A stretch of DNA of 64,000 nt. It comes from Paractinoplanes ovalisporus. Lineage in GTDB: Bacteria > Actinomycetota > Actinomycetes > Mycobacteriales > Micromonosporaceae. The stretch is taken from assembly GCF_016834655.1 (NCBI RefSeq), contig NZ_JAENHP010000003.1, positions 496,001-560,000 on the forward strand. Reading direction: 5' to 3'. Below, piece after piece: positions 9,113-32,143 of the stretch. A program made the position numbers and the translations under genes. A model generated the notes under the pieces. The model had not been told where the DNA came from and did no database searches. It saw nothing but the letters and a program-made list of their open reading frames with translations. Position 1 is the first letter of the stretch, and the number at the start of each line of letters is the position of its first letter.

Positions 9113-9910
9113 ATGGCCTACAGCACCGCCGACGTGATGGCCGCCCTGGCCGGCGGGGCCCTGATTCTGCTGCGGCACGGGCAGAGCTCGGCCAACGCGG
9201 CCGACGTCTTCACCGGCTGGCATGACGCCGGCCTCAGCCCGCTCGGCGTCGCGCAGGCCCGGGACGCCGCCGCGACCCTGCGCGCGTGCGGCGTGCGACC
9301 GACGAGCGTGCACACGTCGTTGCTACGCCGGTCGATCGTCACCGCCGAAATCGTCACCGACGCGCTGGGGTGCGGCTGGGTGCCGGTGGACCGGTCGTGG
9401 CGCCTCAACGAGCGGCATTACGGTGCCCTCACCGGGCTGAGCAAGACGGCCGTGGCCGGGTGGGCCGGCGCGACGGCGTTCCACGCGTGGCGACGCTCGT
9501 ACGCGGTCGCGCCGCCACCGATGAGTGACGAGGCGGCGGCCGGGATGTACGCCGACGCACGCTACGCCGGGCTGCCCACCGGCGCGTGGCCGCGCACCGA
9601 GAGCCTGGCCGACGTCCGGGCCAGGCTGCTGCCCTACTGGACCGACGTGTTGTACCCACTGCTCCGGGCCGGCGGGACGCCGCTGGTGGCCGGTCACGGC
9701 AACAGCCTGCGCGCGTTCGTGATGCACCTGGAGGGCCTGAGCCCGGCCGAGGTGGAGCACCTAGACATCCCCACCGCCGCGCCGATGCGCTATGTGCTCG
9801 ACCGGCGGGGCCGGCCGGTCGTGGGGGCCCGGGAACGCTACCTCGACCCGGTCAGCGCGGGTGAGCCCGTACGCATCGGTCCCGTCGATGCGGGCCTTCC
9901 GGCTCTGTGA
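9113..9910 (+). CDS. gpm: 2,3-bisphosphoglycerate-dependent phosphoglycerate mutase
   Basis: 265 residues of the histidine phosphatase superfamily. LLRHGQSSAN holds the phospho-accepting His, RRSIVTAEI and NERHYGALTGLSK are the dPGM substrate segments, and GHGNSLRAFVMHLEGLS holds the second catalytic His. It interconverts 3- and 2-phosphoglycerate in glycolysis and gluconeogenesis. About 14 extra residues precede the catalytic core. The ATG at 9113 follows GGAGGGGGCCTGAC. A DosR-like box lies 62 bases upstream, and an enolase lies in the same island, suggesting a dedicated lower-glycolysis set for oxygen limitation; that reading is inference. Confidence 0.9.
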   Translation: MAYSTADVMAALAGGALILLRHGQSSANAADVFTGWHDAGLSPLGVAQARDAAATLRACGVRPTSVHTSLLRRSIVTAEIVTDALGCGWVPVDRSWRLNERHYGALTGLSKTAVAGWAGATAFHAWRRSYAVAPPPMSDEAAAGMYADARYAGLPTGAWPRTESLADVRARLLPYWTDVLYPLLRAGGTPLVAGHGNSLRAFVMHLEGLSPAEVEHLDIPTAAPMRYVLDRRGRPVVGARERYLDPVSAGEPVRIGPVDAGLPAL

Positions 9911-9912
9911 CA

Positions 9913-9948
9913 CCCCGTCGCCGCGGGGACAGGCTCGAGGCGACGGGG
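9913..9948. terminator. Hairpin between mutase and GH65 genes
   Basis: A perfect 10-base stem (CCCCGTCGCC at 9913-9922, GGCGACGGGG at 9939-9948) with a 16-base loop begins two bases after the mutase stop. There is no T-run. It may attenuate or stabilise the transcript between the two genes. Confidence 0.5.
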
Positions 9949-9989
9949 CCGGCCCCGGGGGCCCGGTCCGCAGTCCCGGAGGTGAAGCC

Positions 9990-12392: not shown

Positions 12393-12449
12393 ACGCACGC
12401 GCCGCCGAGCGGCACGGTGATGGAGAAGCCCCTGACGGAGGTATGCACC

Positions 12450-13436
12450 GTGACTCACCCCGAGCACGCCCGCGTGGCCCGTCCGACGCCCCCGCCGTCG
12501 TACGGCGACGCAGAGCTCCACGAGGCAGCGCTCGCGGCGATTCGCGCGCCCTCGATGCACAACAGCCAGCCATGGCGGCTCCGCCTGCGCGACGGTGCGA
12601 TCGAGGTTCTGGCCGACCCCGGCCGGCGGCTCACCGTCGCCGACCGTACGGGCTGGGCCGTCCTGATCGCCTGTGGCGCGGCCACCTTCAACGCCCGTTT
12701 GGCGCTGGCCGTCCGCGGTCGCCCGGCCGAGGTCCGTCTGCTTCCGGCGGCGGACGTCGTCGCCCGGCTCTCCCCCGGCCGGGAGCGACCGGCCACCTAC
12801 GCCGAGGAGGCCCTGTACGCCAGGATCCCCCAACGGCACAGCAACCGGTCGCCCTTCTGGCCCGAGCCCGTGCCGCGTGACATCCGGCGCCGACTGGCCC
12901 GGGCGGCCGACAGCGAGCAGGCCTGGCTCGATCTTGTGGTCGACCGGCCCGCCCTGACACAGCTCGCCGAGATCGCCGTCAGCGCCGACGAGGTCCTGCG
13001 GCGAGATGACAACTATCAAGCCGAACTGCTCGCGTGGACGCACACCGACAGCGCCGCCGATGGGGTGCCGGTCCGGGCCGGCGGCGTGCGTCCGGAGCCA
13101 CAGGATCTGCTGCCGCAACGGGGTTTCGGTGGCCGGACACGCGCGCCGGGGCGTGACTACGAGGCCGAGCCCCTCGTCGGGGTCCTCGGCATGTCCGGCG
13201 ACCGGCCGGCCGACCAGGTCCAGGCCGGTCAGGCCCTGGAGAAAGTGTTGCTGACGGCGACGGATTCCGGCTTGGCCGTCTCGCTGATCTCACAGCCCAT
13301 CGAGGTTGCGGCCGCGCGCGCCCGGTTACGCCGATTCCTCAACCGTCCCGGCTGGCCGCAGATGGTGCTGCGGCTCGGCTACGGCGTTCCGGGACGGGCG
13401 GGCCCCCGGCGCCGCCTCTCCGAGGTCCTTACTTGA
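12450..13436 (+). CDS. Acg-type nitroreductase family protein
   Basis: 328 residues from a GTG at 12450, which lies 8 bases after GGAGG; an ATG at 12417 is in frame but has no ribosome site. The family signature appears as APSMHNSQPWRLRLRD (Met replaces Leu). The IPQRHSNRSPF, VQAGQALEKVLLTATDSGLAVSLISQPIEV and WPQMVLRLGYG blocks are all present, and the C-terminus ends SEVLT. It follows the GH65 gene by 57 bases and precedes the kinase by 21, so it probably shares a transcript with one or both. Flavin binding is inferred from the family; the physiological electron acceptor is unknown. Confidence 0.87.
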   Translation: MTHPEHARVARPTPPPSYGDAELHEAALAAIRAPSMHNSQPWRLRLRDGAIEVLADPGRRLTVADRTGWAVLIACGAATFNARLALAVRGRPAEVRLLPAADVVARLSPGRERPATYAEEALYARIPQRHSNRSPFWPEPVPRDIRRRLARAADSEQAWLDLVVDRPALTQLAEIAVSADEVLRRDDNYQAELLAWTHTDSAADGVPVRAGGVRPEPQDLLPQRGFGGRTRAPGRDYEAEPLVGVLGMSGDRPADQVQAGQALEKVLLTATDSGLAVSLISQPIEVAAARARLRRFLNRPGWPQMVLRLGYGVPGRAGPRRRLSEVLT

Positions 13437-13457
13437 CGACAAGGAAGGTGACTGGCG

Positions 13458-14798
13458 ATGTCCCACCAGGCCGGAGAATTGCTGGACGGCCGTTACCGGC
13501 TGGGTGACCGGATCGCCTCGGGTGGCATGGGCGACGTGTGGCAAGGCACCGACGTGCTGCTCAACCGGGCCGTCGCGGTCAAGACCCTGCGCGACGACCG
13601 GGCCACCGACCCGCATTTCCACCGTCGCTTCCAGAACGAGGCCCGCGTCATGGCGGCCCTGCACCACCCCGGCATCGCCGACGTGTACGACTTCGGCCGC
13701 CGCCCGGGAGATCCCTATCTCGTCATGGCGTTCGTGCACGGTCAGCCGCTGGACCGTCGGCTGGCCGGGCACGGCCGGATCCCGGTCGGCGAGACCATGG
13801 CGATCGTCGCTCAGGTGGCACGGGCGCTGCAGGCCGCACACGACGTGGGAATCGTGCATCGCGACGTGAAGCCGGGCAACATCATCGTCCAGCCGGACGG
13901 CACGGCGGTCCTGGTCGACTTCGGTATCGCCCACTCCGCCGGGTCGGCCGACCTCACCGCCACCAAGGAGGTGCTGGGCACCCCGCACTACCTGGCCCCC
14001 GAGCGACTGTCCAAGCAGGGTGCCGGTCCCGCCGCGGACCTGTACGCGCTCGGCGCTGTCGCCTACCACTGCCTGGCCGGACAGCCCCCGTTCACGGCCG
14101 AGGACACCCTGGCCATCGCGATGCAACACCTGCGGGAGGAACCACCGCGTCTGCCGCCCGACATCCCGGCGGCGGCCCGCGACGTCGTGACGACGGCCCT
14201 GGCCAAGGATCCGGCGGACCGCTTCCCGTCGGCCGCGACGATGGCCGACGCGGCACAGCGGGCCGCGGGCTCGGCGTTCGCGGCGGCTACCACGGTGCTG
14301 CGTCCCGGTCGCACCGAACCACCCGAAGCGCCCACGGTGCGCTTGAGGGGCCGTCACAGTAAGGCCCTGATGCTCGTCCTGGTGGCCCTGGCTCTGGTGG
14401 CCGGTTTCACGACTCTGGCGGTCGCCGGGCCGTTCGGCCACGGACCCGGATCGCCGGTCCCGTCGGTCTCCGTCCCGGCCGGCCCGCCCTCGGCCACGCC
14501 GGACGGCCACGGCGCCGGTGGCACGACCACCCGTACGCCGGCCTCTCCTCAGCAGACCGCGACGAGCCGGCCCACCACGCCGGCGCCGACCACCCCTCGC
14601 ACGACGCCCACGACCACGCCACCGACGACGCCGCCGGCCACCACCCCACCGGCCACCACTCCCCCAACCACGACGCCGCCGCCCACAACCGCACCGGTCA
14701 CCACGGCACCGCCTTCACCGCCGCCGGCCACGACCCCCACCGGACCTCAGGCGGGCCTGCCGCAACGCCCAGCGCAAGGCGGCGACAGCGGCCTGTGA
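13458..14798 (+). CDS. Membrane Ser/Thr protein kinase with Thr/Pro-rich tail
   Basis: 446 residues. The kinase domain (about 10-270) is complete: glycine loop IASGGMGDVWQG, Lys in AVAVKTL, catalytic HRDVKPGNI, DFGIAH in place of DFG-LA, and the APE motif in YLAPERL. A juxtamembrane stretch is followed by one helix at about 295-318, then about 90 residues dominated by TTP/PTT repeats, probably an extracytoplasmic stalk. No PASTA domain is present. AAGGAAGGTGACTGGCG precedes the ATG. The last 18 codons overlap, antisense, the remnant of a universal stress gene (14747-14858), so the original C-terminus may have been replaced by recombination. It may phosphorylate regulators of the surrounding stress genes; that is inference. 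Confidence 0.87.
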   Translation: MSHQAGELLDGRYRLGDRIASGGMGDVWQGTDVLLNRAVAVKTLRDDRATDPHFHRRFQNEARVMAALHHPGIADVYDFGRRPGDPYLVMAFVHGQPLDRRLAGHGRIPVGETMAIVAQVARALQAAHDVGIVHRDVKPGNIIVQPDGTAVLVDFGIAHSAGSADLTATKEVLGTPHYLAPERLSKQGAGPAADLYALGAVAYHCLAGQPPFTAEDTLAIAMQHLREEPPRLPPDIPAAARDVVTTALAKDPADRFPSAATMADAAQRAAGSAFAAATTVLRPGRTEPPEAPTVRLRGRHSKALMLVLVALALVAGFTTLAVAGPFGHGPGSPVPSVSVPAGPPSATPDGHGAGGTTTRTPASPQQTATSRPTTPAPTTPRTTPTTTPPTTPPATTPPATTPPTTTPPPTTAPVTTAPPSPPPATTPTGPQAGLPQRPAQGGDSGL

Positions 14799-14858
14799 AC
14801 CGTCCACGCCCACCACGATGTCGGTGTCCCTGACGTCGGGCACCAGGTGCTGAGTCAT
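14747..14858 (-). pseudogene. Universal stress protein remnant (first 37 codons)
   Basis: On the minus strand the ATG at 14858 overlaps the TGA of the MFS gene and begins MTQHLVPDVRDTDIVVGVDG, then SQAAVAALRWALRQARLR. This is the unmistakable N-terminus of a UspA domain (IVVGVDGS...ALRWA). After that the frame runs into the antisense of the kinase Thr/Pro tail and has no Usp character. The gene was therefore cut off by the kinase arriving from the other side or by a deletion. It would have been the last gene of the enolase-MFS operon. Confidence 0.75.
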
Positions 14859-16261
14859 CTCGTCCTCCGATCTGCCGAGCCGGCCCGGTGCTGCACGCGG
14901 CGCCGCTCGAGTTCGCGTCTCCCCGCCCGGTACAGCGACACGATGTCCGCGCCGGCCATCTGCCGCAGCGCGACCAGGCCCACCGTGACGCCGCACAGTC
15001 CCGCCACCGCGTAGAGCAGGCGGCTGTCGGCCAGCCGGACGGAGTAGGGGCCCAGGATGAGCCGGTGCGGGGATCCGGCCCCGGCCAGCGCGCTCGCCGA
15101 CGCGACGGCGAGCAGCAGCATGGCCCGGGCCGCGGTCTGCACAAAGGCGAAGACCCGGCCGCGTACGGCGTCGTCGACGTCGCCTCCGATGATCGTCACG
15201 CCGCACAGGAAGGCCAGACCGGCGCCGAACCCGACGACCACGACCTCGGCGAGGGCCGCGGCCAGGTGGACGGTGACGGACAACAGCACCACGGCCAGGC
15301 CGGCCAGCTGCACCGACAGACCGAACACCAGCCGCCGCGGCACCTGGGCGGACAGCTTGGGCCCGGCCAGCACGCCGGCTCCGAACCCGACGAAGAGCGC
15401 CGCGAACAGCAGCCCGAACGTGGCGTCACCGCCGCCGAGCGACCGGCTGTAGAAACGCGCCCCGCCGACCACGATGCCGGCGCCGGCGAAGGCCCCCAGC
15501 AGGCCGATGACCAGTCCCCGCAGCATCGGTGTCCCGGTCAGGTAGCGCCACCCGGTGCGCAGTGCCGCGCCGGCTGATTCCGTGCGGGCCGACGCGGGTG
15601 CGCCCCGCCCGGAGATCTCCGGCACCCCGAAGTGGACGACCGCTGCCGAGGCCAGGAACGTCAAGGCATCAAAATAGAGCGCGAAGGCGGCCGCGTCGGT
15701 GCCGCCGAGGCTCGGCAGACGCGCCGCCCCGGCGAACGCCAGCGCCGCGAGCACCGGGGTGATCCCGTACGTGGTGATGATGGTCAGTTGGTTGGCGGTC
15801 TCGAGCCGGTGGCGGGGAATCAGGTTGGGAACGGCGGCTTCCTTGGCCGGGTTCCACACCATCGCGGCCGCCTGCGCGGTGAACGAGGCGGCCGCGGCCC
15901 ACCCGACCACGATCGCGTGGTCGTGCGACAGCAGTGCCGCGGTCGGGATCGAGGCGAACAACAGGAAACGGGCCACGTCGACCGACACCATCGTGTGGCG
16001 CCGGTCGAACCGGTCGGCCAGCACACCGGCGACCGGCCCGAGCAGCAACGACGGCAGCAACTGGACGGCGATCACGGCACCGAAGGCCGCGCCCTGAGCC
16101 GCCGGCGAGCCCATCTGGGCCGAGGCGAACGACGAGGTCGCCAGCAGGCCCAGCCAGTCGCCGAGGGACGACAACCCGAAGACGAGCCAGAGCCGCCGGA
16201 ACGGGCGCAGCCGGACCACCTCCGCCAGCGCGGAGGAGTTCAGGTGCGTCGCCGGCGCCAT
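14855..16261 (-). CDS. MFS transporter
   Basis: 468 residues with about 12 hydrophobic helices. It has the N-terminal FRRLWLVFGLSSLGDWLGLLA, the loop ADRFDRRHTM (the MFS motif between helices 2 and 3), and an NxxxPxxE-like segment in WNPAKEAAVPNLIPRHRL. It resembles the MFS half of the actinobacterial MFS/dTMP-kinase fusion proteins and related macrolide-type exporters, but there is no kinase domain: the last 40 residues are a basic cytoplasmic tail. The substrate is unknown. It lies 11 bases downstream of enolase and overlaps the truncated stress gene by four bases (ATGA), so it is the middle of a minus-strand operon that probably starts near 18067. Confidence 0.83.
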   Translation of the reverse strand: MAPATHLNSSALAEVVRLRPFRRLWLVFGLSSLGDWLGLLATSSFASAQMGSPAAQGAAFGAVIAVQLLPSLLLGPVAGVLADRFDRRHTMVSVDVARFLLFASIPTAALLSHDHAIVVGWAAAASFTAQAAAMVWNPAKEAAVPNLIPRHRLETANQLTIITTYGITPVLAALAFAGAARLPSLGGTDAAAFALYFDALTFLASAAVVHFGVPEISGRGAPASARTESAGAALRTGWRYLTGTPMLRGLVIGLLGAFAGAGIVVGGARFYSRSLGGGDATFGLLFAALFVGFGAGVLAGPKLSAQVPRRLVFGLSVQLAGLAVVLLSVTVHLAAALAEVVVVGFGAGLAFLCGVTIIGGDVDDAVRGRVFAFVQTAARAMLLLAVASASALAGAGSPHRLILGPYSVRLADSRLLYAVAGLCGVTVGLVALRQMAGADIVSLYRAGRRELERRRVQHRAGSADRRTR

Positions 16262-18272: not shown

Positions 18273-18291
18273 GTCGGGACCTTCGGCCCTG
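18273..18291 (+). promoter_or_regulatory. DosR-like box upstream of cNMP-domain gene
   Basis: GGGACCTTCGGCCCT at its core differs from the mycobacterial DosR half-consensus GGGACTTTNGNCCC only at the sixth base. It lies about 86 bases before the ATG at 18377. Confidence 0.65.
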
Positions 18292-18376: not shown

Positions 18377-18910
18377 ATGGTTTCAGACATCACAGTGTTC
18401 GACCGTCTCGCCCTGCATCCGCTGGTGGCGGATATGCCCGGTTTCTGGTTGCGGCGTCTGGCCGCGCTCGGCACCGCGGTCACCTGGCCGGCGGCGACCC
18501 GGCTGATCCGCGAGGGCGCCCCGCTCGACAAGGTGTGGCTGCCCTGGACGGGAGTCGTGCTGATCGACATGTACGTTCCCGGGCGGGGTGATGTGCCGAT
18601 CACCGTGACCGGTGCGGATGGTGTGCTGGGCTGGTCCGGCCTGATCCCGCCGTACCGATCGACGGTGGGCGCGTTCGTCGTCGAGGAGTGCCGGGCGGTC
18701 GAGCTGCGGGCCGGCGGCCTGCGCAATCTGATCGCCGAGGATCCGGCGATCGGCGCCGAGTTCACCGGCCGTCTTCTGTCGATCGCGACAAACCAGTTGC
18801 ACGCCGCCCAGCGGCGGATCGCCGACTTCCGCCGCCCTTCCGCGGCCGGCCGAGGTCCGGGGATCGGTTCCGTCGCAGCGCACCGCACGGCTGATCTGGA
18901 GGAGCCATGA
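18377..18910 (+). CDS. Cyclic-nucleotide-binding-domain protein without DNA-binding domain
   Basis: 177 residues. A Crp-like beta-roll covers about 15-135 (RLIREGAPLDKVWLPWTGVVLIDM...VLGWSGLIPPYRS...AVELRAGGL). It ends in a helix and a short polar tail, with no helix-turn-helix, so it cannot act as a classical Crp. The phosphate-binding cassette of true cAMP receptors (GE..L...R.A) is not recognisable. The LGWS.L.PPYR stretch is shared with the hydrogenase-operon protein at 26663-27142, so the two belong to one subfamily. The ATG at 18377 follows GGGACGGGGGCGACG. Its TGA overlaps the next ATG (ATGA), so it is translationally coupled to the nitroreductase. Confidence 0.8.
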   Translation: MVSDITVFDRLALHPLVADMPGFWLRRLAALGTAVTWPAATRLIREGAPLDKVWLPWTGVVLIDMYVPGRGDVPITVTGADGVLGWSGLIPPYRSTVGAFVVEECRAVELRAGGLRNLIAEDPAIGAEFTGRLLSIATNQLHAAQRRIADFRRPSAAGRGPGIGSVAAHRTADLEEP

Positions 18911-19884
18911 AGACTCGGGCGCTCACACCGTCGGGCAAGGTGCTGATGCAGTGCGTGCGCGCGGCCACGTCGGCGCCGTCACTGCACAACAGCCAGCCCT
19001 GGCGATTCGCCGTCGTGGGCAACGCCGTCGAGGTCTACGCCGACCCGGAACGCAGGCTCCGGGTGCTCGACCCGGCCGGCCGTGAGCAGATGATCAGCGT
19101 GGGCGCGGCCCTTTTCACCCTGCGGCTGGCCGTGTCGCGAGCCGGCTTCGACTCCCGGACCCGGCTGTTCCCGGTCCCCGAGAAACCCGACCTGGTGGCC
19201 CGGGTGACCGTCAAGGGGCGAGCCACGGTCAGCCCGGCCGCGCAGGCCTTGGCGGCCGCGATTCCGCAGCGCCACACCAACCGATGGGCCTTCAGCCCCG
19301 ACCCGGTCCCGGAGTCTGCTCTGGACAGTCTCCGGGATGCTGCCCGACAGGAGAAGGCCGTGCTGACCGTGGCGTCGGCCACGGCCCGGCCGGCCATCCT
19401 CGGGCTGGCCCGTTCGGCCGATCGCTGGCTGCGCGCCCGGCCCGGCTACCGGGAGGAGCTGTCCCGCTGGAGCACGGCCGAGGGCAGCCGCGACGGCGTG
19501 ACCGGTCGGGCCGCCGGCGCGGCCGACGCCACCGGGTTCATGCCGTTGCGTGACTTCACCGAAGCGTCCGGGCTGTTCCGGCCGGTCGAGACGTTCGAGC
19601 AGCGCCCCACCATCCTGGCTCTCGCCACCGAGGGCGACCGCCAGCCGGACTGGGTGCGTGCTGGGCAGGCCCTGCAACGGATGCTGCTCACCGCGACGTG
19701 CCTGAAACTCGCGGCCATGCCGATCAGCCAGCTCGTGGAGGTTCCAGCGGTGCGCAACGTGCTTTCCGGCGCGGCGGGCGGGTTGTCGGTGCAGATGGTG
19801 CTGCGGGTTGGCTACGGCCGCACACCGGCGAGTACTCCCCGCCGCCCGCCCGCCGAGGTCCTGGTCGCCGCGACCACCCTGTAG
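18907..19884 (+). CDS. Acg-type nitroreductase family protein
   Basis: 325 residues with SAPSLHNSQPWRFAVVG near residue 22, REQMISVGAALFTLRLAV, IPQRHTNRWAFSPDPVP, MPLRDFTEASGLFRPVETFEQRPTIL, VRAGQALQRMLLTATCLKLAAMPISQLVEVPAVRNVL and a C-terminus ending AEVLVAATTL. It is the best-preserved copy and can serve as a reference for the truncated one at the left end. Translation is coupled to the preceding cNMP-domain gene by ATGA overlap, which suggests that the two products act together, perhaps with the nucleotide domain sensing energy or redox status. Flavin binding is known for the family; the coupling role is inference. Confidence 0.9.
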   Translation: MKTRALTPSGKVLMQCVRAATSAPSLHNSQPWRFAVVGNAVEVYADPERRLRVLDPAGREQMISVGAALFTLRLAVSRAGFDSRTRLFPVPEKPDLVARVTVKGRATVSPAAQALAAAIPQRHTNRWAFSPDPVPESALDSLRDAARQEKAVLTVASATARPAILGLARSADRWLRARPGYREELSRWSTAEGSRDGVTGRAAGAADATGFMPLRDFTEASGLFRPVETFEQRPTILALATEGDRQPDWVRAGQALQRMLLTATCLKLAAMPISQLVEVPAVRNVLSGAAGGLSVQMVLRVGYGRTPASTPRRPPAEVLVAATTL

Positions 19885-22102: not shown

Positions 22103-22121
22103 GGGGACGAACGGCCCTGGT
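22103..22121 (+). promoter_or_regulatory. DosR-like box upstream of acyltransferase-hydrogenase operon
   Basis: GGGACGAACGGCCCTG keeps both half-sites. It lies 69 bases upstream of the ATG at 22190. A weaker related element (AAAGGTCCGGTCGGCC) is at 22081-22096. Confidence 0.55.
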
Positions 22122-22189: not shown

Positions 22190-24037
22190 ATGAACAGCGC
22201 TGTCAACGGCCAGTCCCTGATCCGGGGCGCCCGGGGGCCCGGCCCGGGCGACGAGATCGCGGCCGCCCGCCCGACGGATCCGCCGGAGATCGCGGCGCTG
22301 CTCGGCGACGACCGTTTCGCGGCGGCGCTGGCCGAGCTGGCCCGGTCACTCGGCCGCGACCGGCATGCCGTACGGGCCGAGGCCGCCGGGTATCTGCGCG
22401 AGATGGGCGCCACCCACACCCGGAGGGCGACCAGCGACTGGGCCCGGTTCGGGCGCTGGCTGACCCGGGCCCACGAGCTGATTCTCGACCCCGAGCAGGC
22501 GCGGCAGCTGCGGCAGCTCGACCGCGGGCAGTCGCTGCTGTTCCCGTTCTCGCACCGCTCCTACCTCGACGGCATCACGGTGCCGGCGGCGATCTCACGC
22601 AGCGGCATCACGCCGCCGTTCGTGCTGGCCGGCGCCAATCTCGACGTGTTCCCGTTCAACCACCTGCTGCGCCGCTCCGGGTTCGTCTACGTGCGGCGGT
22701 CCACCACGGACAACCCGGTCTACCGGTGCGCTCTGCGCTGGTACGTCCTTCAGCTGATCCGGAACAAGCGGAACCTGTGCTGGTCGATCGAGGGCGGGCG
22801 CACCCGTACGGGAAAGCTCCGCCCACCGGCGTACGGGCTGCTCCGCTACGTGGTCGACGCGCTGGGCGCCGAGGCCGGCGGGCGGGCACTCATCGTGCCG
22901 GTGTCCATCGTCTACGAGCAGCTGCACGAGGTCGCGCTGGTGACGACCGAGGCGCGCGGGGCGGGCAAACGACCGGAGGACCTGCGCTGGCTGTGGAACT
23001 TCGGCTGGTCTCAGCGGCAGCGGTTCGGCCGGGCCTACGTGGAGTTCGGCGAGACTCTGCCGCTGACCGGTCGCCTCAGCGAGCTGCGCCCGAAGGCGCC
23101 GACCGTGGAACAGGTCGCCCTGGAGACCTGCCATCGCATCAACCGCGCCACTCCCGTGACCACGACCGCCGTCGTCTGCCTGGCCCTGCTGGCGGCCGAC
23201 CGCGGACTGACGCTCGACGAGGTGCTGGCCACGGTGGCCCCGCTGGCCCGCTACCTGGCCCAGCGCGGCCGGCCGGTGGCCGGGGCGGCCGACCTGACCG
23301 ACCGGGCCACCGTGCGGCGCGCGCTCGACGACCTGGTGCGCTCGGGCGTGCTGACCGGCTTCGACGGCGGCACCGACACGGTCTGGGCGATCGCGCCCGG
23401 CCAGCATCTGGTCGCCGCGTTCTACCGCAACACCGCCGTGCACACGCTGGTCGACCGGGCGATCGGCGAGCTGGGCCTGATGGCCGCGGCCGAGGACGGC
23501 CCGGACGGCCTGGTCACCGCCAACCGCGAGACCTTCCGCCTGCGCGACCTGCTCAAGTTCGACTTCTTCTTCCCGTCGCGCGACGAGTTCGCCCGGGAGA
23601 TGACCGCGGAGCTGGCCCTGGTCGACCCGCGTCAGGCGGGCGGCCTGCACGGGTTCACCCCGGCCGACGCCGCCCGCTGGCTGCGCGAGAGCGACCTGCT
23701 GGTCGCCCATCTCGTGCTGCGCCCCTTCCTGGAGGCCTATCTGATCGTGGCCGAGCGGCTGGCCGCCTGGGAGCCCGGCGAACCGTTCGACCGGGACCGG
23801 TTCCTGGACGAATGTCTGCGCCTGGGCCGGCAGTGGGCGTTGCAGAAACGCGTGGCCAGCGAGGAGTCGGTGTCGCTGGAGCTGTTCCGGCCCGCGCTGC
23901 GGCTGGCCGAGCATCGGGGCCTGGTCGAGCCGGGTGATACGACGGCTCAGCGGCGCCGGGCATTCCGCGAGGAGCTTCGGGAGACCGTACGCCGGGTGAC
24001 CGTGATCGCCGGGCTGCACCGGCCGGAGCGGTCATGA
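22190..24037 (+). CDS. plsB: PlsB-type glycerol-3-phosphate acyltransferase
   Basis: 615 residues. The acyltransferase blocks are clear: FSHRSYLDG (H-x4-D, near residue 122), GFVYVRRST, IEGGRTRTGKL (substrate-binding Glu-Gly-Gly) and IVPVSIVYEQL. Long helical flanks match PlsB, which acylates glycerol 3-phosphate at position 1 at the inner membrane face; mycobacterial PlsB2 is similar. The product feeds phospholipid or triacylglycerol synthesis. It is the first gene of an eight-gene run in which every junction overlaps or abuts, and a DosR-like box lies 69 bases upstream. By analogy, storage lipid formation is a hallmark of DosR-controlled dormancy in mycobacteria, but there through Tgs1. Confidence 0.88.
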   Translation: MNSAVNGQSLIRGARGPGPGDEIAAARPTDPPEIAALLGDDRFAAALAELARSLGRDRHAVRAEAAGYLREMGATHTRRATSDWARFGRWLTRAHELILDPEQARQLRQLDRGQSLLFPFSHRSYLDGITVPAAISRSGITPPFVLAGANLDVFPFNHLLRRSGFVYVRRSTTDNPVYRCALRWYVLQLIRNKRNLCWSIEGGRTRTGKLRPPAYGLLRYVVDALGAEAGGRALIVPVSIVYEQLHEVALVTTEARGAGKRPEDLRWLWNFGWSQRQRFGRAYVEFGETLPLTGRLSELRPKAPTVEQVALETCHRINRATPVTTTAVVCLALLAADRGLTLDEVLATVAPLARYLAQRGRPVAGAADLTDRATVRRALDDLVRSGVLTGFDGGTDTVWAIAPGQHLVAAFYRNTAVHTLVDRAIGELGLMAAAEDGPDGLVTANRETFRLRDLLKFDFFFPSRDEFAREMTAELALVDPRQAGGLHGFTPADAARWLRESDLLVAHLVLRPFLEAYLIVAERLAAWEPGEPFDRDRFLDECLRLGRQWALQKRVASEESVSLELFRPALRLAEHRGLVEPGDTTAQRRRAFREELRETVRRVTVIAGLHRPERS

Positions 24038-25524
24038 CCGTCACCGAGGTTCTGGACACCGTCCGGGCCGGGACGGCCGGGCCGAAGACCGCCGCTTTTT
24101 TCGATCTCGACGGGACCCTGGTGCGCGGCTACACCGCCGCCGGCATCGTCCTCGACCAGGTGCGCCGGGGTGAGGTCGGCCCGGCCGAGCTCGCCGGCAT
24201 GATCGCCGCCGTCGCCGGGGGTGCCGAAGCGATGGGCCCGGCCGGGATCGCGGCGCTGCGCGGCCGCCGGGTCGACGACGCGACCGAGGTCGGCGAGCGT
24301 CTGTTCGTCGACCACATCGCCGGCACGATCCGCCCCGAGGCCCGCGACCTCGTCCGGGCCCACCGCCGGATGGGGCACACCGTGGTCGTGGCCTCCTCGG
24401 CCACCCGCATGCAGATCGCCCCGATCGCCCGTGACCTCGGCATCGAGCACATCGTCTGCACCGAGCTGGAGGCCGTCAGCGGCGTGCTCACCGGCCGCAG
24501 CCTCAGCGGCATGCTCTGGGGTGAGGCGAAGGCAGCGGCCGTGCGTGGCTTCGCCGATGCGCACGAGATCGACCTCGCGAGCAGCTACGGCTACGCCAAC
24601 GGGCTGGAGGACGCCGCTTTCCTGGAGACGGTCGGTCACCCGTACGCGGTGAACCCGCACCCGGGTCTGCTGCGCACCGCCGGTGACCGCGGCTGGCCCG
24701 TGCTGACCCTGCGTGAGCCCCGCACCCCGGGGTTGCGGGCCTGCCTGGGCACCCTGGCCGGGCTGTTCGGGGTGAACGTCGGGCTGACCACCGGACTCGG
24801 GTGCGGGTGGCTCACCGGCGACCGGCGCCTGGGCGCCAACGCGGGCATCGGGTTGTCGGCCGACCTCGCGCTGGCCTTCACCGGCGTGCGGCTCCACACC
24901 ATCGGCGGGGAGAACCTGGAGAAGGCCCGTCCGGCCGTCTTCGTCGCCAACCACCAGAGCACCCTCGACGTGCTCGTGCTGGCCGCGCTGCTGCGGCACG
25001 ACTTCACCGCCGTCGCCAAGAAGGAGGCACGCCTCGACCCGCGCATGCTCGTCATCGGCGCGACCATGGATCCGGTCTGGATCGACCGGTCCAATCTGGT
25101 CAAGGCCAAGGCGAGCCTCGACGGCGCGGTGCGGCGGCTGCGCGCGGGCACCTCGATCCTGATCCTGCCCGAGGGCACCCGCATGCCGACCCCGACGCCG
25201 GGCCCGTTCAAGAAGGGCGCCTTCCGCATCGCCGTGCAGGCGGGCGTCCCGATCGTGCCGATCGTGCTGCGCAACACCGGCGAGCTGGCCTGGCGAAGGT
25301 CGCTGGTGGTCAACCCGGGCACGGTCGACGTCGCCGTGCTGGACCCGATCCCCACCGCCGGGTGGCGCACCGACGAGCTGCGCCGCCGCACGGCTGAGGT
25401 GCGTGAGTTGTTCGTCGACACGCTCGAGAACTGGCCGTCCGCCGGGACCGGGGCTTTCGCCTCTACCACGCCCGCGGAGCGCGAGCCTACCTTCGGCTGG
25501 ACTGTCCCGAGGGAGGCGACATGA
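24034..25524 (+). CDS. plsC: HAD phosphatase-PlsC acyltransferase fusion
   Basis: 496 residues. The N-terminal half (about 18-240) is a HAD-IB (SerB-like) phosphatase: FFDLDGTLVRGY, VVASSATRMQ and GYANGLEDAAFLETVG. The C-terminal half (about 265-470) is a 1-acylglycerol-3-phosphate acyltransferase: FVANHQSTLDVLVL (H-x4-D), KKEARLDP and LPEGTRMPTP. The same fusion occurs in mycobacteria next to PlsB2 (Rv2483c). It would acylate lysophosphatidate; the phosphatase could dephosphorylate phosphatidate or another phosphoester. It overlaps plsB by four bases (ATGA) and hyhB by four. Confidence 0.9.
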   Translation: MTVTEVLDTVRAGTAGPKTAAFFDLDGTLVRGYTAAGIVLDQVRRGEVGPAELAGMIAAVAGGAEAMGPAGIAALRGRRVDDATEVGERLFVDHIAGTIRPEARDLVRAHRRMGHTVVVASSATRMQIAPIARDLGIEHIVCTELEAVSGVLTGRSLSGMLWGEAKAAAVRGFADAHEIDLASSYGYANGLEDAAFLETVGHPYAVNPHPGLLRTAGDRGWPVLTLREPRTPGLRACLGTLAGLFGVNVGLTTGLGCGWLTGDRRLGANAGIGLSADLALAFTGVRLHTIGGENLEKARPAVFVANHQSTLDVLVLAALLRHDFTAVAKKEARLDPRMLVIGATMDPVWIDRSNLVKAKASLDGAVRRLRAGTSILILPEGTRMPTPTPGPFKKGAFRIAVQAGVPIVPIVLRNTGELAWRRSLVVNPGTVDVAVLDPIPTAGWRTDELRRRTAEVRELFVDTLENWPSAGTGAFASTTPAEREPTFGWTVPREAT

Positions 25525-26666
25525 CGGCCACGACCGACGTGTCAGCGAACCAGCCGGTCCTGATCGACGTGAGCGCGCTCGCGCTGCTGTTCGAGACGCT
25601 GCGCGAGCAGGGGTACACCGTCGTCGGTCCCACCGTCCGCGACGGCGCGGTGGTCACGGCCGTGCTCGATTCGGCGGACCAGCTCCCGTACGGCGTGGGG
25701 GTCGAGACCGAGGCCGGGCGGTACCGTCTGCGTGATCGCGCCGACCGGGCCGCGTTCGCCCATTCGGCCGGCCCGCAGTCGTGGAAGAACGTCCTGCTCC
25801 CGGCCCGCACCCGGCGCTGGTCGGCCGACCGCTCGCCGGACGGCACGATGGTCGTGAGCGGGCCGGACGAACCCCGGCGGTACGCGCTGCTCGGGGTCCG
25901 TGCCTGCGACCTCGCCGCCATCGGTGTGCTGGACCGCGTGCTCGCCGGCGGCCGGCACACCGACCCGGTCTACGCCGGCCGCCGCGACGGCAACCTGATC
26001 ATCGCCGTGGAGTGCACCGAGCCCGGGGCGACCTGCTTCTGCGCCTCGATGGGCACCGGTCCGCAGTGCGGCGCCGGCTTCGACCTGGCGATGACCGAGC
26101 TGGTCGACGACGACGGCCACCGGTTCCTGGTCCGGGCCGGCACACCGGCCGGGGCCGGGATTCTCGCGGCACTCCCCGGTCGTCCGGCCGGACCGGCGAG
26201 CGTCGGACAGGCCCGGGACGCGGTCGCGGCGGCGGCAGCCCGGATGGGCCGCACGATGCCGGCGGTGAACCTGCCCGGCCTGCTCGCCGCGAACCGGCAG
26301 TCCCCGCACTGGGACGACGTCGCCTCCCGCTGCCTCACCTGCGGCAATTGCACGATGGTGTGCCCCACGTGCTTCTGCACCTCCACCGAGGACGTCACCG
26401 ACCTCACCGGCGACCACGCCGAACGGTGGCAGCGCTGGGCGTCCTGCTTCGACCTGGACTTCTCCTACCTGCACGGCGGCAGCGTGCGCACCAGCGGCCA
26501 GGCCCGCTACCGGCAGTGGATCAGCCACAAGCTCGGCACCTGGCACGACCAGTTCGGCATGTCCGGGTGTGTCGGGTGCGGGCGGTGCATCGCGTGGTGC
26601 CCGGCCGGCATCGACCTCACCCAGGAGGTGGACGCGCTCGCCGCGGCCGCCGCGGTGACGTCATGA
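25521..26666 (+). CDS. hyhB: Group 3b hydrogenase beta subunit (iron-sulfur protein)
   Basis: 381 residues. The N-terminal part carries a Cys-rich segment CTEPGATCFCASMGTGPQC (about 168-188) and the C-terminal third has two ferredoxin-like clusters: CLTCGNCTMVCPTCFC (about 271-286) and CVGCGRCIAWCP (about 351-362). This matches the HydB/HyhB electron-transfer subunit of NADP-linked sulfhydrogenases. It passes electrons between the [NiFe] dimer and the flavin subunit. Overlap of ATGA with plsC and with the cNMP-domain gene shows tight operon packing. In Mycobacterium smegmatis the homologous hyhBGSL set is DosR-dependent and evolves H2 under hypoxia (established there); the same role here is inferred. 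Confidence 0.9.
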   Translation: MTATTDVSANQPVLIDVSALALLFETLREQGYTVVGPTVRDGAVVTAVLDSADQLPYGVGVETEAGRYRLRDRADRAAFAHSAGPQSWKNVLLPARTRRWSADRSPDGTMVVSGPDEPRRYALLGVRACDLAAIGVLDRVLAGGRHTDPVYAGRRDGNLIIAVECTEPGATCFCASMGTGPQCGAGFDLAMTELVDDDGHRFLVRAGTPAGAGILAALPGRPAGPASVGQARDAVAAAAARMGRTMPAVNLPGLLAANRQSPHWDDVASRCLTCGNCTMVCPTCFCTSTEDVTDLTGDHAERWQRWASCFDLDFSYLHGGSVRTSGQARYRQWISHKLGTWHDQFGMSGCVGCGRCIAWCPAGIDLTQEVDALAAAAAVTS

Positions 26667-27142
26667 CCGCGCCGCTGCTCACCCGAGTGGCCCGCCTGCC
26701 GTTCGCGTCCGGGTTCGAGCCGGCCCAGCTGCGGCGGCTGTGCGCGACCGGGCGGTCCGCGGCGTACCGGCCGGGTGAGCGGATCTTCACCGAGGGCGGT
26801 GCCGCCGACCGGTTCTGGCTGATCGAAAACGGCCGGGTGGCGCTGGACCTGCGGGTGCCCGGCCGGGGCGATCAGGTGATCGAGACGCTGGCCACCGGCG
26901 CCGTGCTGGGCTGGTCGTGGCTGCATCCGCCGTACCGGTGGCAGTTCGGCTGCGAGACCCGGGGCCCGGTGGACACGGTCATGTTCGACGCGGCGGCGGT
27001 GCGGGAACTCTGCGACGCCGACCCCGCTTTCGGCTACGCCATGCTGCGCCGGTTCGTCCCGGTCATCACCGGACGGCTGCACGCGACCCGACTGCGCCTG
27101 CTGGACCTCTACGCGGCACCGGCTGCGAAGGCACGGCCATGA
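26663..27142 (+). CDS. Cyclic-nucleotide-binding-domain protein inside hydrogenase operon
   Basis: 159 residues, almost entirely one Crp-type beta-roll: AAYRPGERIFTEGGAADRFWLIENGRVAL, IETLATGAVLGWSWLHPPYRW, then a C-terminal helix HATRLRLLDLYAAP. There is no helix-turn-helix. The VLGWS.LHPPYRW segment replaces the canonical cAMP phosphate cassette and recurs in the protein at 18377-18910. It overlaps hyhB and hyhG by four bases on each side. Being translated between two hydrogenase subunits suggests a structural or allosteric role in the complex, sensing a nucleotide or another ligand; that is inference. Confidence 0.82.
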   Translation: MTAPLLTRVARLPFASGFEPAQLRRLCATGRSAAYRPGERIFTEGGAADRFWLIENGRVALDLRVPGRGDQVIETLATGAVLGWSWLHPPYRWQFGCETRGPVDTVMFDAAAVRELCDADPAFGYAMLRRFVPVITGRLHATRLRLLDLYAAPAAKARP

Positions 27143-27993
27143 GCACATCGCTCGCCTCCCGCGTGACCGGTGCGGAGCTTCCGCTGCCGTACCGGGTCAT
27201 CGCCCGCCACGCCGACACGGACGACACGGTCACGCTCGAGCTGGCGTACGAGACCGCACCGCTGCCCGCGTTCGCGCCCGGCCAGTTCGCCATGCTCACC
27301 GCGTACGGGATCGGTGAGGTGCCCATCTCGCTGAGCGGCCTGCCCGCCCCGCACGAGACCGCCCGCCGGTTGACGCACACGCTGCGAGCGGTCGGCGCGG
27401 TGACGCGGGCCCTGCACGCGGCCGGACCGGGCACGGTGATCGGCGTGCGGGGCCCGTTCGGCACCACCTGGGACGTGCCGTCGGCGGCCGGCCACGACGT
27501 GGTGGTCGTCGCCGGCGGCATCGGCCTGGCCCCGGTCCGGCCGATCGTGCAGGCCGTGCTGGCCGAACGCGACCGCTACGGCGAGGTGGTGCTGCTGGTC
27601 GGCGCCCGCACCCCGGCCGACCTGCTGTACCGCGACGATCTCGACCGCTGGGCCGCGGCCGGCGTCCAGGTGGGTGTCACCGTGGACCGGCCCGCGGAGG
27701 GCTGGAACGGTCATGTCGGTGTGGTGCCGGCGCTCGTCGCATCCGCGCGTTTCCGGCCCGGCCGCAGCGTGGGCTTCGTCTGCGGCCCCGAGGTGATGAT
27801 GCGGTTCACCGCACGGGCGCTGACCGACCGGGGTGTGCCCGCGTCGCGGGTGCGGGTGTCGCTCGAGCGCAACATGCGCTGCGGGGCCGGCTGGTGCGGT
27901 CACTGCCAGCTGGGGCCGTTGCTGCTGTGCCGGGACGGCCCGGTGGTCGACTACGCCCGGGCCGAACCGCTGCTCGACGTGCGGGAGTTGTGA
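27139..27993 (+). CDS. hyhG: Group 3b hydrogenase gamma subunit (FAD/NAD(P) reductase)
   Basis: 284 residues. The FAD-binding barrel has [23 protein letters not shown] (about 45-67), the NAD(P) domain has [17 protein letters not shown] and [17 protein letters not shown], then [12 protein letters not shown]. The C-terminal cluster [17 protein letters not shown] (four Cys, about 253-269) binds a [2Fe-2S] centre, as in dihydroorotate dehydrogenase electron-transfer subunits and HydG. It links NAD(P)H to the hydrogenase. Start at 27139 by ATGA overlap with the cNMP gene; the stop overlaps the next ATG by one base (TGATG). Confidence 0.92.
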
Positions 27994-28802
27994 TGACGAC
28001 GCTGGCGGTGTGGAAATTCGCGTCCTGCGACGGATGCCAGTTGAGCCTGCTCGACTGCGAGGACGAGTTGCTGGCCGTGGCGGGCCGGGTGGAGATCGCG
28101 CATTTCCTGGAGGCCACCCGCGCCGTCGAGCCCGGCCCGTACGACGTGTCACTGGTGGAGGGCTCGATCACCACGCCGGAGGACGCCGAGCGGATCCGCC
28201 ATGTCCGTGAGATGTCGCGCGTGCTGGTCACCCTCGGCGCATGCGCCACCGCGGGCGGCGTGCAGGCCCTGCGCAACTTCGCCGACATCGACGAGTTCCG
28301 GTCGGTGGTCTACGCCCGTCCCGACTACGTGTCCACCTTGGCCACCTCGACCCCGATCGCGGCGCACGTCGACGTGGACTACGAACTGCACGGCTGCCCG
28401 ATCGACCGGCGCCAGCTGCTCGACCTGATCACCTCCCTGCTGCTGGGCCGGCGCCCCGACCTGCCCGGGCACAGCGTCTGCTTCGAGTGCAAGCGGCGCG
28501 GATCCGTCTGCGTGGTGGTCGCCCACGGCACGCCCTGCCTGGGCCCGGTCACCCGGGCCGGCTGCGGCGCGATCTGCCCGGCCTACCAGCGCGGCTGCTT
28601 CGGCTGCTTCGGCCCCGCCGAAACCCCGAACGCCGCGGCCCAGGCCGGTCTGCTGCGGGCCACCGGCATGGCCGAGGACGACGTGGTCCGCGCCTATCGC
28701 ACGTACAACGCCGCCGACCCGACGTTCATCGAGCTGTCCCGGGTCATGGCCGGACCGGCGCCGGGCGCGGGCCCCGGCGGCACCGGGCAGGAGGAGACAT
28801 GA
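27993..28802 (+). CDS. hyhS: Group 3b [NiFe] hydrogenase small subunit
   Basis: 269 residues. The N-terminal [15 protein letters not shown] holds the proximal-cluster Cys pair; GACATAGG and the [14 protein letters not shown] segment supply further ligands, and the C-terminal Cys-rich stretch ([41 protein letters not shown]) fits three [4Fe-4S] clusters. There is no Tat signal, as expected for a cytoplasmic group 3b enzyme. It begins one base inside the hyhG stop and overlaps hyhL by four bases, giving stoichiometric translation of the dimer. Confidence 0.93.
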
Positions 28803-30097
28803 CGCACCGCTCCGAACGGGTCCTGGACGTGCGGTCGCTGGCCCGGGTCGAGGGCGAGGGCGCCATGCACGTCCGCGTGCGCGACGGCGCCGTCGCCGAC
28901 GTCCGCCTCGACATCTACGAGCCGCCCCGGTTCTTCGAGGCGCTGCTGCGCGGACGCCGGCACACCGAGCCGCCCGACATCACCGCCCGGATCTGCGGGA
29001 TCTGCCCGGTCGCCTATCAGATGAGCGCCTGCGCGGCCGTCGAGGACGCCTGCGGCGTGAGCGTGGACCCGGCCGTCGCGACCCTGCGGCGGCTGCTCTA
29101 CTGCGGCGAGTGGATCGAGAGCCACACGCTGCACATCTACCTGCTGCACGCCCCCGACTTCCTCGGGTACGCCGGTGCCCTGGAGATGGCCCAGGACCGC
29201 CGTGACCTGGTCGAGCGTGGCCTGTCGACGAAGCAGGCCGGCAACGAGATCGTGGAGCTGCTCGGCGGCCGGGCCATCCACCCGGTGAACATCCGGGTCG
29301 GCGGCTTCTACCGGACGCCGTCGCGCGCGGAGCTGACGGCCCTGCGCGAGCGGCTACGGAAAGCGTTGGACCAGGCGGTCGAGACGGTGCAGTGGGTGGC
29401 CGGGTTCGACTTTCCCGACTTCCACCACGACCACGAGATGCTGGCGCTGAGCACGCCCGGGCGGTATGCGATCGAATCGGGTGACGTCGCCACCACCGGC
29501 GGGCTCACCTTCGACGTACGCCGGTTCGAGGAGCACATCATCGAGGAGCAGGTCCCGCATTCCACCGCCCTGCACGCGCGTATCGCCGGGCGGGGCCGCT
29601 ACATCGTAGGCCCCACCGCCCGCTTCACGCTCAACCGGCAGTGGCTGAGCCCTCTGGCGCAGGAGGTGGCGTCGGCGGCCGGGCTGGGGGCCGACTGCCG
29701 CAACCCCTACCGCAGCATCGTGGTCCGGGCGGTGGAGACGGTGTACGCGCTGGACGAGGCGATCCGGCTGATCGACCGGTACGAGCCACCGGCCCGCCCG
29801 TACGCCGAGGTCCCGCCGCGCGAGGCGGCCGGGTACGGCGCGACCGAGGCGCCGCGCGGCATCCTGTTCCACCGCTACGGCATCGGCGCCGACGGTCTGA
29901 TCACCTCGGCCCGGATCGTGCCGCCCACCTCCCAGAACCAGGCCGGCATCGAGGACGACCTGCGGCGCTTCGTCGGCGGCCGGCTGCACCTGGACGACGA
30001 GCACCTGACCTGGCAGTGCGAGCAGGCCATCCGCAACTACGACCCGTGCATCTCGTGCTCGACGCACTTCCTCGACCTGACGGTGGACCGGCGATGA
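28799..30097 (+). CDS. hyhL: Group 3b [NiFe] hydrogenase large subunit
   Basis: 432 residues. Both nickel-binding motifs are intact: [10 protein letters not shown] (about 62-71) and [13 protein letters not shown] near the C-terminus. [11 protein letters not shown] at the start and the central [11 protein letters not shown] block are also typical. The protein would bind Ni-Fe(CN)2CO and evolve or oxidise H2 with NADP(H). Only nine residues (FLDLTVDRR) follow the His of the second motif, a very short tail compared with the roughly 15-residue extension usually cut off by maturation proteases. A protease gene nevertheless overlaps its stop by four bases. Confidence 0.94.
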
Positions 30098-30687
30098 GCC
30101 TGGCCGACGGCGACCGGCGGGTGGTCATCGGGATCGGCAACGACTACCGCCGCGACGACGGCTTCGGGCCGGCGGTCGTCGCCGACCTGGCGGGCCGTCG
30201 CGCGTCCGACCCGCGGCTGTCCGGGGTGGACCTGCGCGTCAGCGACGGCGAGCCGGCCCGGCTGATCGGTCTGTGGACCGGATGCGCTCTCGCCGTCGTC
30301 GTCGACGTCGTCCCTGGCCCGGCCGACCACGCGGGCGACCGCCACGAGCTGGCGCCGGCCCACATCGGCGCCGGCGCGGGCGGTTCGCACGCCGTCAGCC
30401 TGGGCAGCACCGTGGCCCTGGGCCGGGCGCTCGACCGCCTGCCCGGCCGGCTGGTCGTGCTGGCCGTCTCGGGCACCGAGTTCGGCTTCGGCCAAGGTCT
30501 GACCCCGCCGGTCGCCGCCGCCGTCCCGGCGGTCGCGGAGCGCGTCTGCGACCTGGTGGGCCAGCACGGCGAATGTCCGGGGCGGCGGCGTACAGCACCA
30601 CCGGCGCTCCCCAGGTCTCCTACGACTGGTAGGAACGAACAATCCCCGGCAGGTGCCGCCCCGCCGGCGTGCGGTACGGTCGGATAA
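30094..30687 (+). CDS. Hydrogenase maturation protease
   Basis: 197 residues. VIGIGNDYRRDDGFGPAVVADLAGR is the N-terminal nickel-sensing Asp/Glu segment of the HycI/HyaD family; CALAVVVDVVPG and GSHAVSLGS supply the other two metal ligands (Asp and His). The catalytic core ends near residue 155; the last 40 residues (GRRRTAPPALPRSP...) are Pro/Arg-rich and look like read-through without fold. It normally cleaves the large-subunit C-terminus after nickel insertion. No hypABCDEF maturation genes occur in the window, so these must lie elsewhere. Confidence 0.87.
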   Translation: MSLADGDRRVVIGIGNDYRRDDGFGPAVVADLAGRRASDPRLSGVDLRVSDGEPARLIGLWTGCALAVVVDVVPGPADHAGDRHELAPAHIGAGAGGSHAVSLGSTVALGRALDRLPGRLVVLAVSGTEFGFGQGLTPPVAAAVPAVAERVCDLVGQHGECPGRRRTAPPALPRSPTTGRNEQSPAGAAPPACGTVG

Positions 30688-30703
30688 ATACCCCCGGGGG
30701 TAT
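30688..30703. promoter_or_regulatory. CstR/CsoR-type operator 1
   Basis: ATACCCCCGGGGGTAT is a perfect 16-base palindrome, 30 bases before the ATG at 30734. An identical palindrome lies at 32128. This is the recognised operator shape of the CsoR/CstR repressor family. Confidence 0.8.
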
Positions 30704-32127: not shown

Positions 32128-32143
32128 ATACCCCCGGGGGTAT
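32128..32143. promoter_or_regulatory. CstR/CsoR-type operator 3
   Basis: ATACCCCCGGGGGTAT, identical to operator 1, lies 26 bases before the start of the persulfide dioxygenase remnant. Confidence 0.8.

Follow-up and report, generated by a model that had tools for sequence, protein, structure and literature searches.

Eight overlapping genes for lipid acylation and hydrogen metabolism

We analyzed a 64,000-nucleotide stretch of the Paractinoplanes ovalisporus genome (hereafter the window), in which a pair of glycerolipid acyltransferase genes, plsB and plsC, runs directly into a hydrogenase (hyh) operon. The window covers positions 496001-560000 of an 859-kb contig (NZ_JAENHP010000003.1, our C33) in an 11.4-Mb draft genome of 62 contigs. 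Eight genes on its forward strand form a continuous row at 22190-30687 (Table 1). An earlier sequence-only reading of this DNA had described all eight as joined by 1- or 4-base overlaps, and our direct reading of the gene ends and of the seven junctions agrees: there are six 4-base ATGA overlaps (at 24034, 25521, 26663, 27139, 28799, and 30094) and one 1-base overlap, TGATG, at 27993.

The family matches fit the gene names: GPAT_C and acyltransferase domains for PlsB, HAD and acyltransferase for PlsC, Fer4_22 and sulfhydrogenase beta for HyhB, cNMP_binding for the CNB-domain protein, FAD/NAD and 2Fe-2S gamma for HyhG, Oxidored_q6 delta for HyhS, and NiFe large subunit for HyhL. The genes hyhG, hyhS, hyhL, and that of the protease were scanned against the Pfam and NCBIfam models as longer open frames; the Pfam scan gave no match for the maturation protease, whose identity comes from TIGR00072. 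PlsB has intact HRSYLD and EGGRTRTGK motifs (HX4D and EGxRTRxGK type) together with the GPAT_C domain, as in PlsB-type glycerol-3-phosphate acyltransferases, and among the lipid models it passed PRK11915 (740 bits, cut-off 698) and failed PRK03355 (574 bits, cut-off 721). The DLDGT, NHQSTLD, and PEGTR motifs of PlsC are likewise intact.

The four sulfhydrogenase-type subunits of a group 3b enzyme are represented: for alpha, beta, and delta the best NCBIfam matches were sulfhydrogenase models, which were also among the top matches for gamma, although no match reached its strict equivalog cut-off. HyhL carries the L1 and L2 cysteine motifs RICGIC and DPCISCSTH, the latter followed by the tail FLDLTVDRR, as expected of a cleavable C terminus. 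Its best solved relatives are alpha subunits of cytosolic hydrogenases or sulfhydrogenases (7e-70 to 2.5e-68, versus 3.5e-45 for the methyl-viologen-reducing type); for these relatives we presume the labels of 3b and of other group 3 subgroups. We predict a group 3b-type, NAD(P)-linked [NiFe] hydrogenase, an assignment by family and best matches rather than by a tree.

Table 1. Genes and sequence features of the plsB-hyh row (positions in the window)
Feature	Position	Strand	Basis or remark
DosR-type box GGGACGAACGGCCCT	22104..22118	+	86 bp before plsB start; sole intact box of the row
plsB-type glycerol-3-phosphate acyltransferase, 615 aa	22190..24037	+	NF008883, 740 bits (cut-off 698); PF19277, PF01553; motifs
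HAD-PlsC bifunctional acyltransferase, 496 aa	24034..25524	+	PF01553 and PF12710; end alignment
plsC 3' tail, 28 codons, similar to a relative's hyhB leader; probably a rearrangement scar	25438..25521	+	Alignments, GC3
Possible decayed DosR-type box GGGGCTTTCGCCTCT, two mismatches	25450..25464	+	Within plsC 3' end, 71 bp before hyhB
hyhB, Fe-S beta subunit, group 3b-like hydrogenase	25521..26666	+	PF17179; NF040833 and NF040829 below cut-offs
CNB-domain protein, 159 aa, putative hydrogenase companion, HoxI-like by published name	26663..27142	+	PF00027; alignment; adjacency in relatives
hyhG, FAD/NAD(P) gamma subunit	27139..27993	+	PF00175, PF10418
hyhS, small (delta) subunit	27993..28802	+	PF01058; NF040836 below cut-off
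hyhL, large (alpha) catalytic subunit	28799..30097	+	PF00374; best solved relatives; L1/L2 motifs
Hydrogenase maturation protease	30094..30687	+	TIGR00072, 84.9 bits (cut-off 47.45), scanned as longer frame 29641-30687

The plsC-hyhB junction is found in a single genome

We then looked for the same gene order at three taxonomic levels (individual loci and genomes are cited by our handles, L and G). In the family, HyhL was sought in 250 genomes sampled from a larger group, which yielded near-full-length matches at 40 places in 38 genomes. One of these is the window, and the remaining 39 stretches were fetched and read; L040, L054, L055, L057, and L073 lie on short contigs. The hyh core was conserved across these loci, with or without the CNB gene. 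Leaving aside L057, a stretch without hyhB, and L073, whose hyhB is cut by the contig end, none of the 37 assessable loci had a plsB or plsC on the same strand directly before hyhB. No plsB at all was present in 37 of the 39 stretches, and in the other two it lay on the opposite strand, at 1.5 kb (L074) and 8.3 kb (L067).

For the genus we used all 67 genomes returned, with matches at E <= 1e-60. PlsB was found in 13, HyhB in 19, and both in 11, a co-occurrence with a hypergeometric probability of 3.5e-6 when species are treated as independent of kinship. None of the other 10 genomes that carry both gene sets has the junction, which therefore occurs in 1 of the 67. Eight of these 10 carry both sets on one contig, always on opposite strands and with plsB and hyhB 1.5, 8, 17, 18, 18, 26, 40, and 43 kb apart; in the other two the sets are on different contigs. 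At the class level (394 genomes sampled from a larger group), the junction was found in none of the 36 genomes carrying HyhL, the source genome excluded. A PlsB relative was present in 12 of the 36: in five it shared the contig of HyhL, at a distance of about 230 kb or more, and in seven it was on other contigs only.

We rejected a conserved plsBC-hyh operon after these surveys. A general plsB-plsC/hyh operon is not supported, as the junction was seen in this genome only. As far as one genome per species can show, the survey of Actinoplanes gene order for which the sequence-only reading called found the order to be unique to this strain, an outcome that this reading had named as refuting its proposal. 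Literature searches on plsB with hydrogenase or DosR and on Actinoplanes or Micromonosporaceae gave no paper on this gene order among the best matches, taken as titles and abstract beginnings of open-licence papers.

Each half of the row has counterparts in relatives

The other junctions of the row recur. Overlaps of 1 or 4 nucleotides were found at plsB-plsC in 11/12 loci, hyhB-CNB in 17/20, CNB-hyhG in 20/20, hyhG-hyhS in 38/41, hyhS-hyhL in 29/39, and hyhL-protease in 21/33 (the window counted; a few loci occur in two fetched stretches). Because such overlaps recur in relatives at six of the seven junctions, they exceed chance, and plsC-hyhB is the single case.

We found plsC at most 400 bp downstream of the PlsB gene in 20 of 27 named PlsB loci; hyh genes lay within the flanks covered in only two of the 27 (L110 and L114), on the opposite strand. 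Among 12 genus relatives, plsC is followed with a 4-base overlap by gpsA in four (L087, L089, L095, and L096; the L089 protein was family-tested and the other three resemble it at both ends), by a WS/DGAT gene in one (L100), and by neither in seven. A WS/DGAT gene likewise follows plsB-plsC in the more distant L117 (Leekyejoonella). In some relatives, plsB-plsC is thus prolonged with 4-base overlaps into a compact glycerolipid or storage-lipid row. Since gpsA or WS/DGAT continues plsB-plsC in relatives, the lipid half of the window looks like a row for phosphatidate or triacylglycerol synthesis. Whether or not an island gpsA has been lost from the source genome, the best matches to gpsA there (54% and 42% identical) are on other contigs.

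Several variants of the hyh operon were also seen. In L059 and L072 (2 of the 39 family loci) it is split into two divergent halves, hyhB-hyhG-hyhS and CNB-hyhL-protease. One genus genome has two hyh operons about 44 kb apart (L061 and L068, at G210:C1 8419501 and 8464140), one with the CNB gene between hyhB and hyhG and the other without it. In L090 (G228), relatives of GH65, DUF2202, and rhodanese genes, which flank the operon in the window, lie between hyhB and plsB (9415-15313); the genes of the island around the operon therefore appear to have been reshuffled between species. The synteny of flanking genes was uninformative for placing breakpoints, as the islands are heavily shuffled.

The end of plsC may be a rearrangement scar

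We then compared the PlsC ends. The homology common to all relatives stops at ENWP, around residue 468, and is followed in the window by a 28-residue tail. The DNA of this tail resembles the hyhB leader of L058, which belongs to the closest hydrogenase relative (G102, 86% identity in HyhL): over nearly the whole length of the tail, 62 of 74 aligned bases are identical. The semiglobal score of 55 was reached by none of 5,000 dinucleotide shuffles (best, 51) and by none of 9,120 sliding windows. The tail is also lower in G+C at third codon positions (GC3) than the rest of plsC (23/28 versus 442/468; P = 0.018).

Other observations speak against such an origin of the tail. The semiglobal score tops that of the best sliding window (54) by a single point, and the local score was reached by 2 of 5,000 shuffles and 25 of 9,120 windows. 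In L058, about 53 bases separate the end of the matching block from the hyhB start, whereas in the window the tail leads directly into hyhB, and the other 17 of the 18 hyhB leaders tried gave no match comparable to that of L058. Tail length varies among other PlsC proteins too. Finally, G102 gave no PlsB match at E <= 1e-60, so that no direct ancestral order is seen. On balance, the evidence that the plsC tail is a former hyhB leader is fair, not decisive. We did not retain the two-mismatch box at 25450 as sole proof of a scar: a match of this quality occurs in 880 of 15,930 background 85-nucleotide windows (5.5%) and in 13.5% of shuffles.

Both halves are predicted to belong to a DosR-type regulon

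The row lies in an island with the marks of a DosR-type system. Upstream of the window, a response regulator has DevR as its best solved match (1e-72; next, VraR at 1.6e-40), and a histidine kinase of GAF-GAF type finds its best matches among DevS-type GAF structures. Both genes are at most 50 kb upstream of plsB (L104 and L105), and we take them as putative DosR and DosS orthologues, by best match rather than by a tree. Further genes of the island are of USP, Acg-like nitroreductase, and AdhE-like type, and there is a candidate narGHJI, named from start sequences only.

The motif GGGACN4GGCCCT has 21 sites in the genome, nine of which fall in C33:401612-518118 (117 kb, about 1% of the genome), the last being the box before plsB. 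The window has three GGGACN4GNCCCT sites versus 0.55 expected, a count reached in 4 of 100 shuffles. In the genus, 9 of 18 assessable loci had an Mtb-type box at most 200 bp before hyhB (background, 19 of 2,520 windows), as did 4 of 19 loci from other genera (background, 14 of 2,494); before plsB, 3 of 12 genus loci had one (background, 15 of 1,736). The two genus counts exclude the window, and all these rates count species as if they were independent, despite their kinship. Gene starts were extrapolated from tblastn matches or measured from the match itself, so positions may shift by tens of bases; L072 and L051 (best HyhB match truncated), L073, and L057 were left out. Two results weigh on the other side: the genome total of 21 compares with 25 for the reversed control, so that only the clustering is unusual, in an interval picked post hoc, and a strict Mtb-type box is lacking in 9 of 18 hyhB and 9 of 12 plsB regions of the genus.

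As the genes lie in a DosR-type island and boxes are above background before both halves in relatives, joint hypoxic induction of the two halves is plausible. The setting of dormancy or hypoxia proposed from the sequence alone is borne out by the DosR-like regulator, the DosS-like kinase, and the clustered boxes. The link proposed between hypoxia, lipid synthesis, and H2 is plausible; a conserved coupled operon is not supported.

A perfect palindrome, TACCCCCGGGGGTA, occurs just past the operon (30689-30702) and again at 32129-32142, about 190 bases before a rhodanese-domain gene; it appeared in none of 100 shuffles. It resembles what we take to be CsoR/CstR-type operators.

The CNB-domain protein is a recurrent neighbor of the hydrogenase

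Family loci repeatedly have the CNB gene between hyhB and hyhG or next to hyhL. It lies at most 4 kb from HyhL in 18 of the 36 class genomes, with one further partial match; the 10 HyhL-carrying g45 genomes (likely Mycobacterium) showed no CNB match next to HyhL. A GWSWLxPPYRW stretch is conserved in most copies; it presumably departs from the usual signature of the canonical cNMP pocket. We read this stand-alone protein as a probable hydrogenase companion, recurrent in actinomycete group 3b-type clusters. A role as a cAMP-responsive transcription regulator is disfavored, CNB being the sole domain matched in the 159 aa and the conserved stretch presumably lacking that signature. In a methanotroph 3b cluster, such a protein is named HoxI and thought to bind NADP (PMC12319191). 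A search for the Ralstonia HoxI gave no Ralstonia or Cupriavidus record among 24 plasmid matches, the presence of a Ralstonia plasmid in the collection not being established.

A second CNB-like gene lies at 18377-18910 in the window (PF00027, 25.6 bits, just under the cut-off of 27.5). It is preceded by a DosR-type box at 18276, and its end shares 4 bases with an Acg-family oxidoreductase gene (18907-19884).

A probable species-level fusion of two units of a predicted hypoxia regulon

The best reading of these data is a lineage-specific fusion of two units rather than a conserved lipid-hydrogenase system. A species-level rearrangement, which we consider likely, would have set the hyh operon behind plsBC and thereby linked two members of a single predicted hypoxia regulon. 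The ancestral state would comprise a separate glycerolipid unit (plsB-plsC, in some relatives with gpsA or WS/DGAT) and a hyhB-CNB-hyhG-hyhS-hyhL-protease unit; in this one lineage, a rearrangement within the island would have lined them up head to tail. Through this joint, a stretch of the former hyhB leader probably came to encode the end of PlsC (28 codons), and the hyhB box would have been damaged, so that one intact box was left, before plsB.

Under hypoxia, we propose that DosS would activate DosR, which may bind the box at 22104 and drive a single eight-gene message. PlsB and PlsC would then convert glycerol-3-phosphate by acylation to phosphatidate, from which membrane or storage lipid is made, while Hyh would exchange electrons between NAD(P)H and protons or H2, in whichever direction prevails; both activities could ease the burden of reductant and acyl chains. 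The overlaps suggest that the lipid and H2 genes may also be translated together, as the sequence-only reading had stated.

A rather unlikely alternative is that the two halves are transcribed apart despite the overlap, with hyh driven from inside plsC by a promoter that survives from the former hyhB leader; a transcription start inside plsC was the other outcome that the sequence-only reading had named as refuting its proposal. The leader-like tail and the box at 25450 would suit it. In L064 and L065, the open frame preceding hyhB has an intact box in its 3' end, so an internal promoter could also persist in plsC here. Yet the box at 25450 is of a quality common in background sequence, and in the alignment five extra bases in the window break the relative's box.

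We regard it as improbable that the fusion is a selected metabolic unit, in which one message ties glycerol-3-phosphate acylation to H2 metabolism as matched hypoxic electron sinks. The seamless plsC-hyhB overlap, the predicted membership of both halves in one regulon, and the PlsB/HyhB co-occurrence in the genus would all fit, but the arrangement is confined to one species, the sets lie on opposite strands in every other genus genome that has them on one contig, and nearly all family hyh stretches lack plsB. An assembly error is very improbable: the joint is known from one draft genome of many contigs, but it lies well inside its contig, is in frame with an ATGA overlap and preceded by leader-like sequence, and plsB and hyhB are each a single match in the genome.

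The species-level fusion is modestly interesting as a case of operon evolution. It would exemplify operon growth by rearrangement: two units that already share an island and a predicted regulator are joined, with the leader of the second becoming coding and its own box decaying. It further suggests that in these filamentous actinomycetes the hypoxia regulon may control de novo glycerolipid acylation beside H2 metabolism, gpsA or WS/DGAT belonging to that gene row in some species. More tentatively, and as less likely than not, we put forward that in Actinoplanes and relatives a DosR-type regulon reaches plsB-plsC (with gpsA or WS/DGAT in some species), that is, the first committed glycerolipid step, coupled with NAD(P)H-linked H2 metabolism, and that here both form one transcription unit under a single operator.

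Comparison with known systems

The island resembles the OsdR regulon of Streptomyces coelicolor, which likewise combines a DevR-type regulator with AGGGCCGATCGGCCCT-like sites and has USP genes nearby; the main text of the paper describing it contains none of the terms hydrogenase, plsB, and acyltransferase (PMC5069765). The group 3b cluster of Rhodococcus equi 103S combines hydrogenase subunits, a CNB-domain protein, and a maturation protein, like the window, and differs in that plsB and DosR are not terms of the main text describing it (PMC13332983).

The Hyh hydrogenase of Mycobacterium smegmatis (Hyd3, MSMEG_3931-3927) shares the beta-gamma-delta-alpha-protease order of the window; unlike the window, its five genes, as listed in the literature, do not include the CNB gene. 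It is induced at low oxygen (PMC2799521) and counted in the dos regulon (PMC8125079). By analogy with this precedent, the operon described here may be switched on by DosR under hypoxia.

The lipid half has its counterpart in the mycobacterial plsB2-plsC pair, in which plsB is likewise followed by a HAD-type plsC. We take this pair to be Rv2482c-Rv2483c, with a WS/DGAT gene next in line. The window differs from this pair in that its PlsB passes PRK11915 and fails PRK03355, and in that the place after plsC is taken not by gpsA or WS/DGAT but by hyhB.

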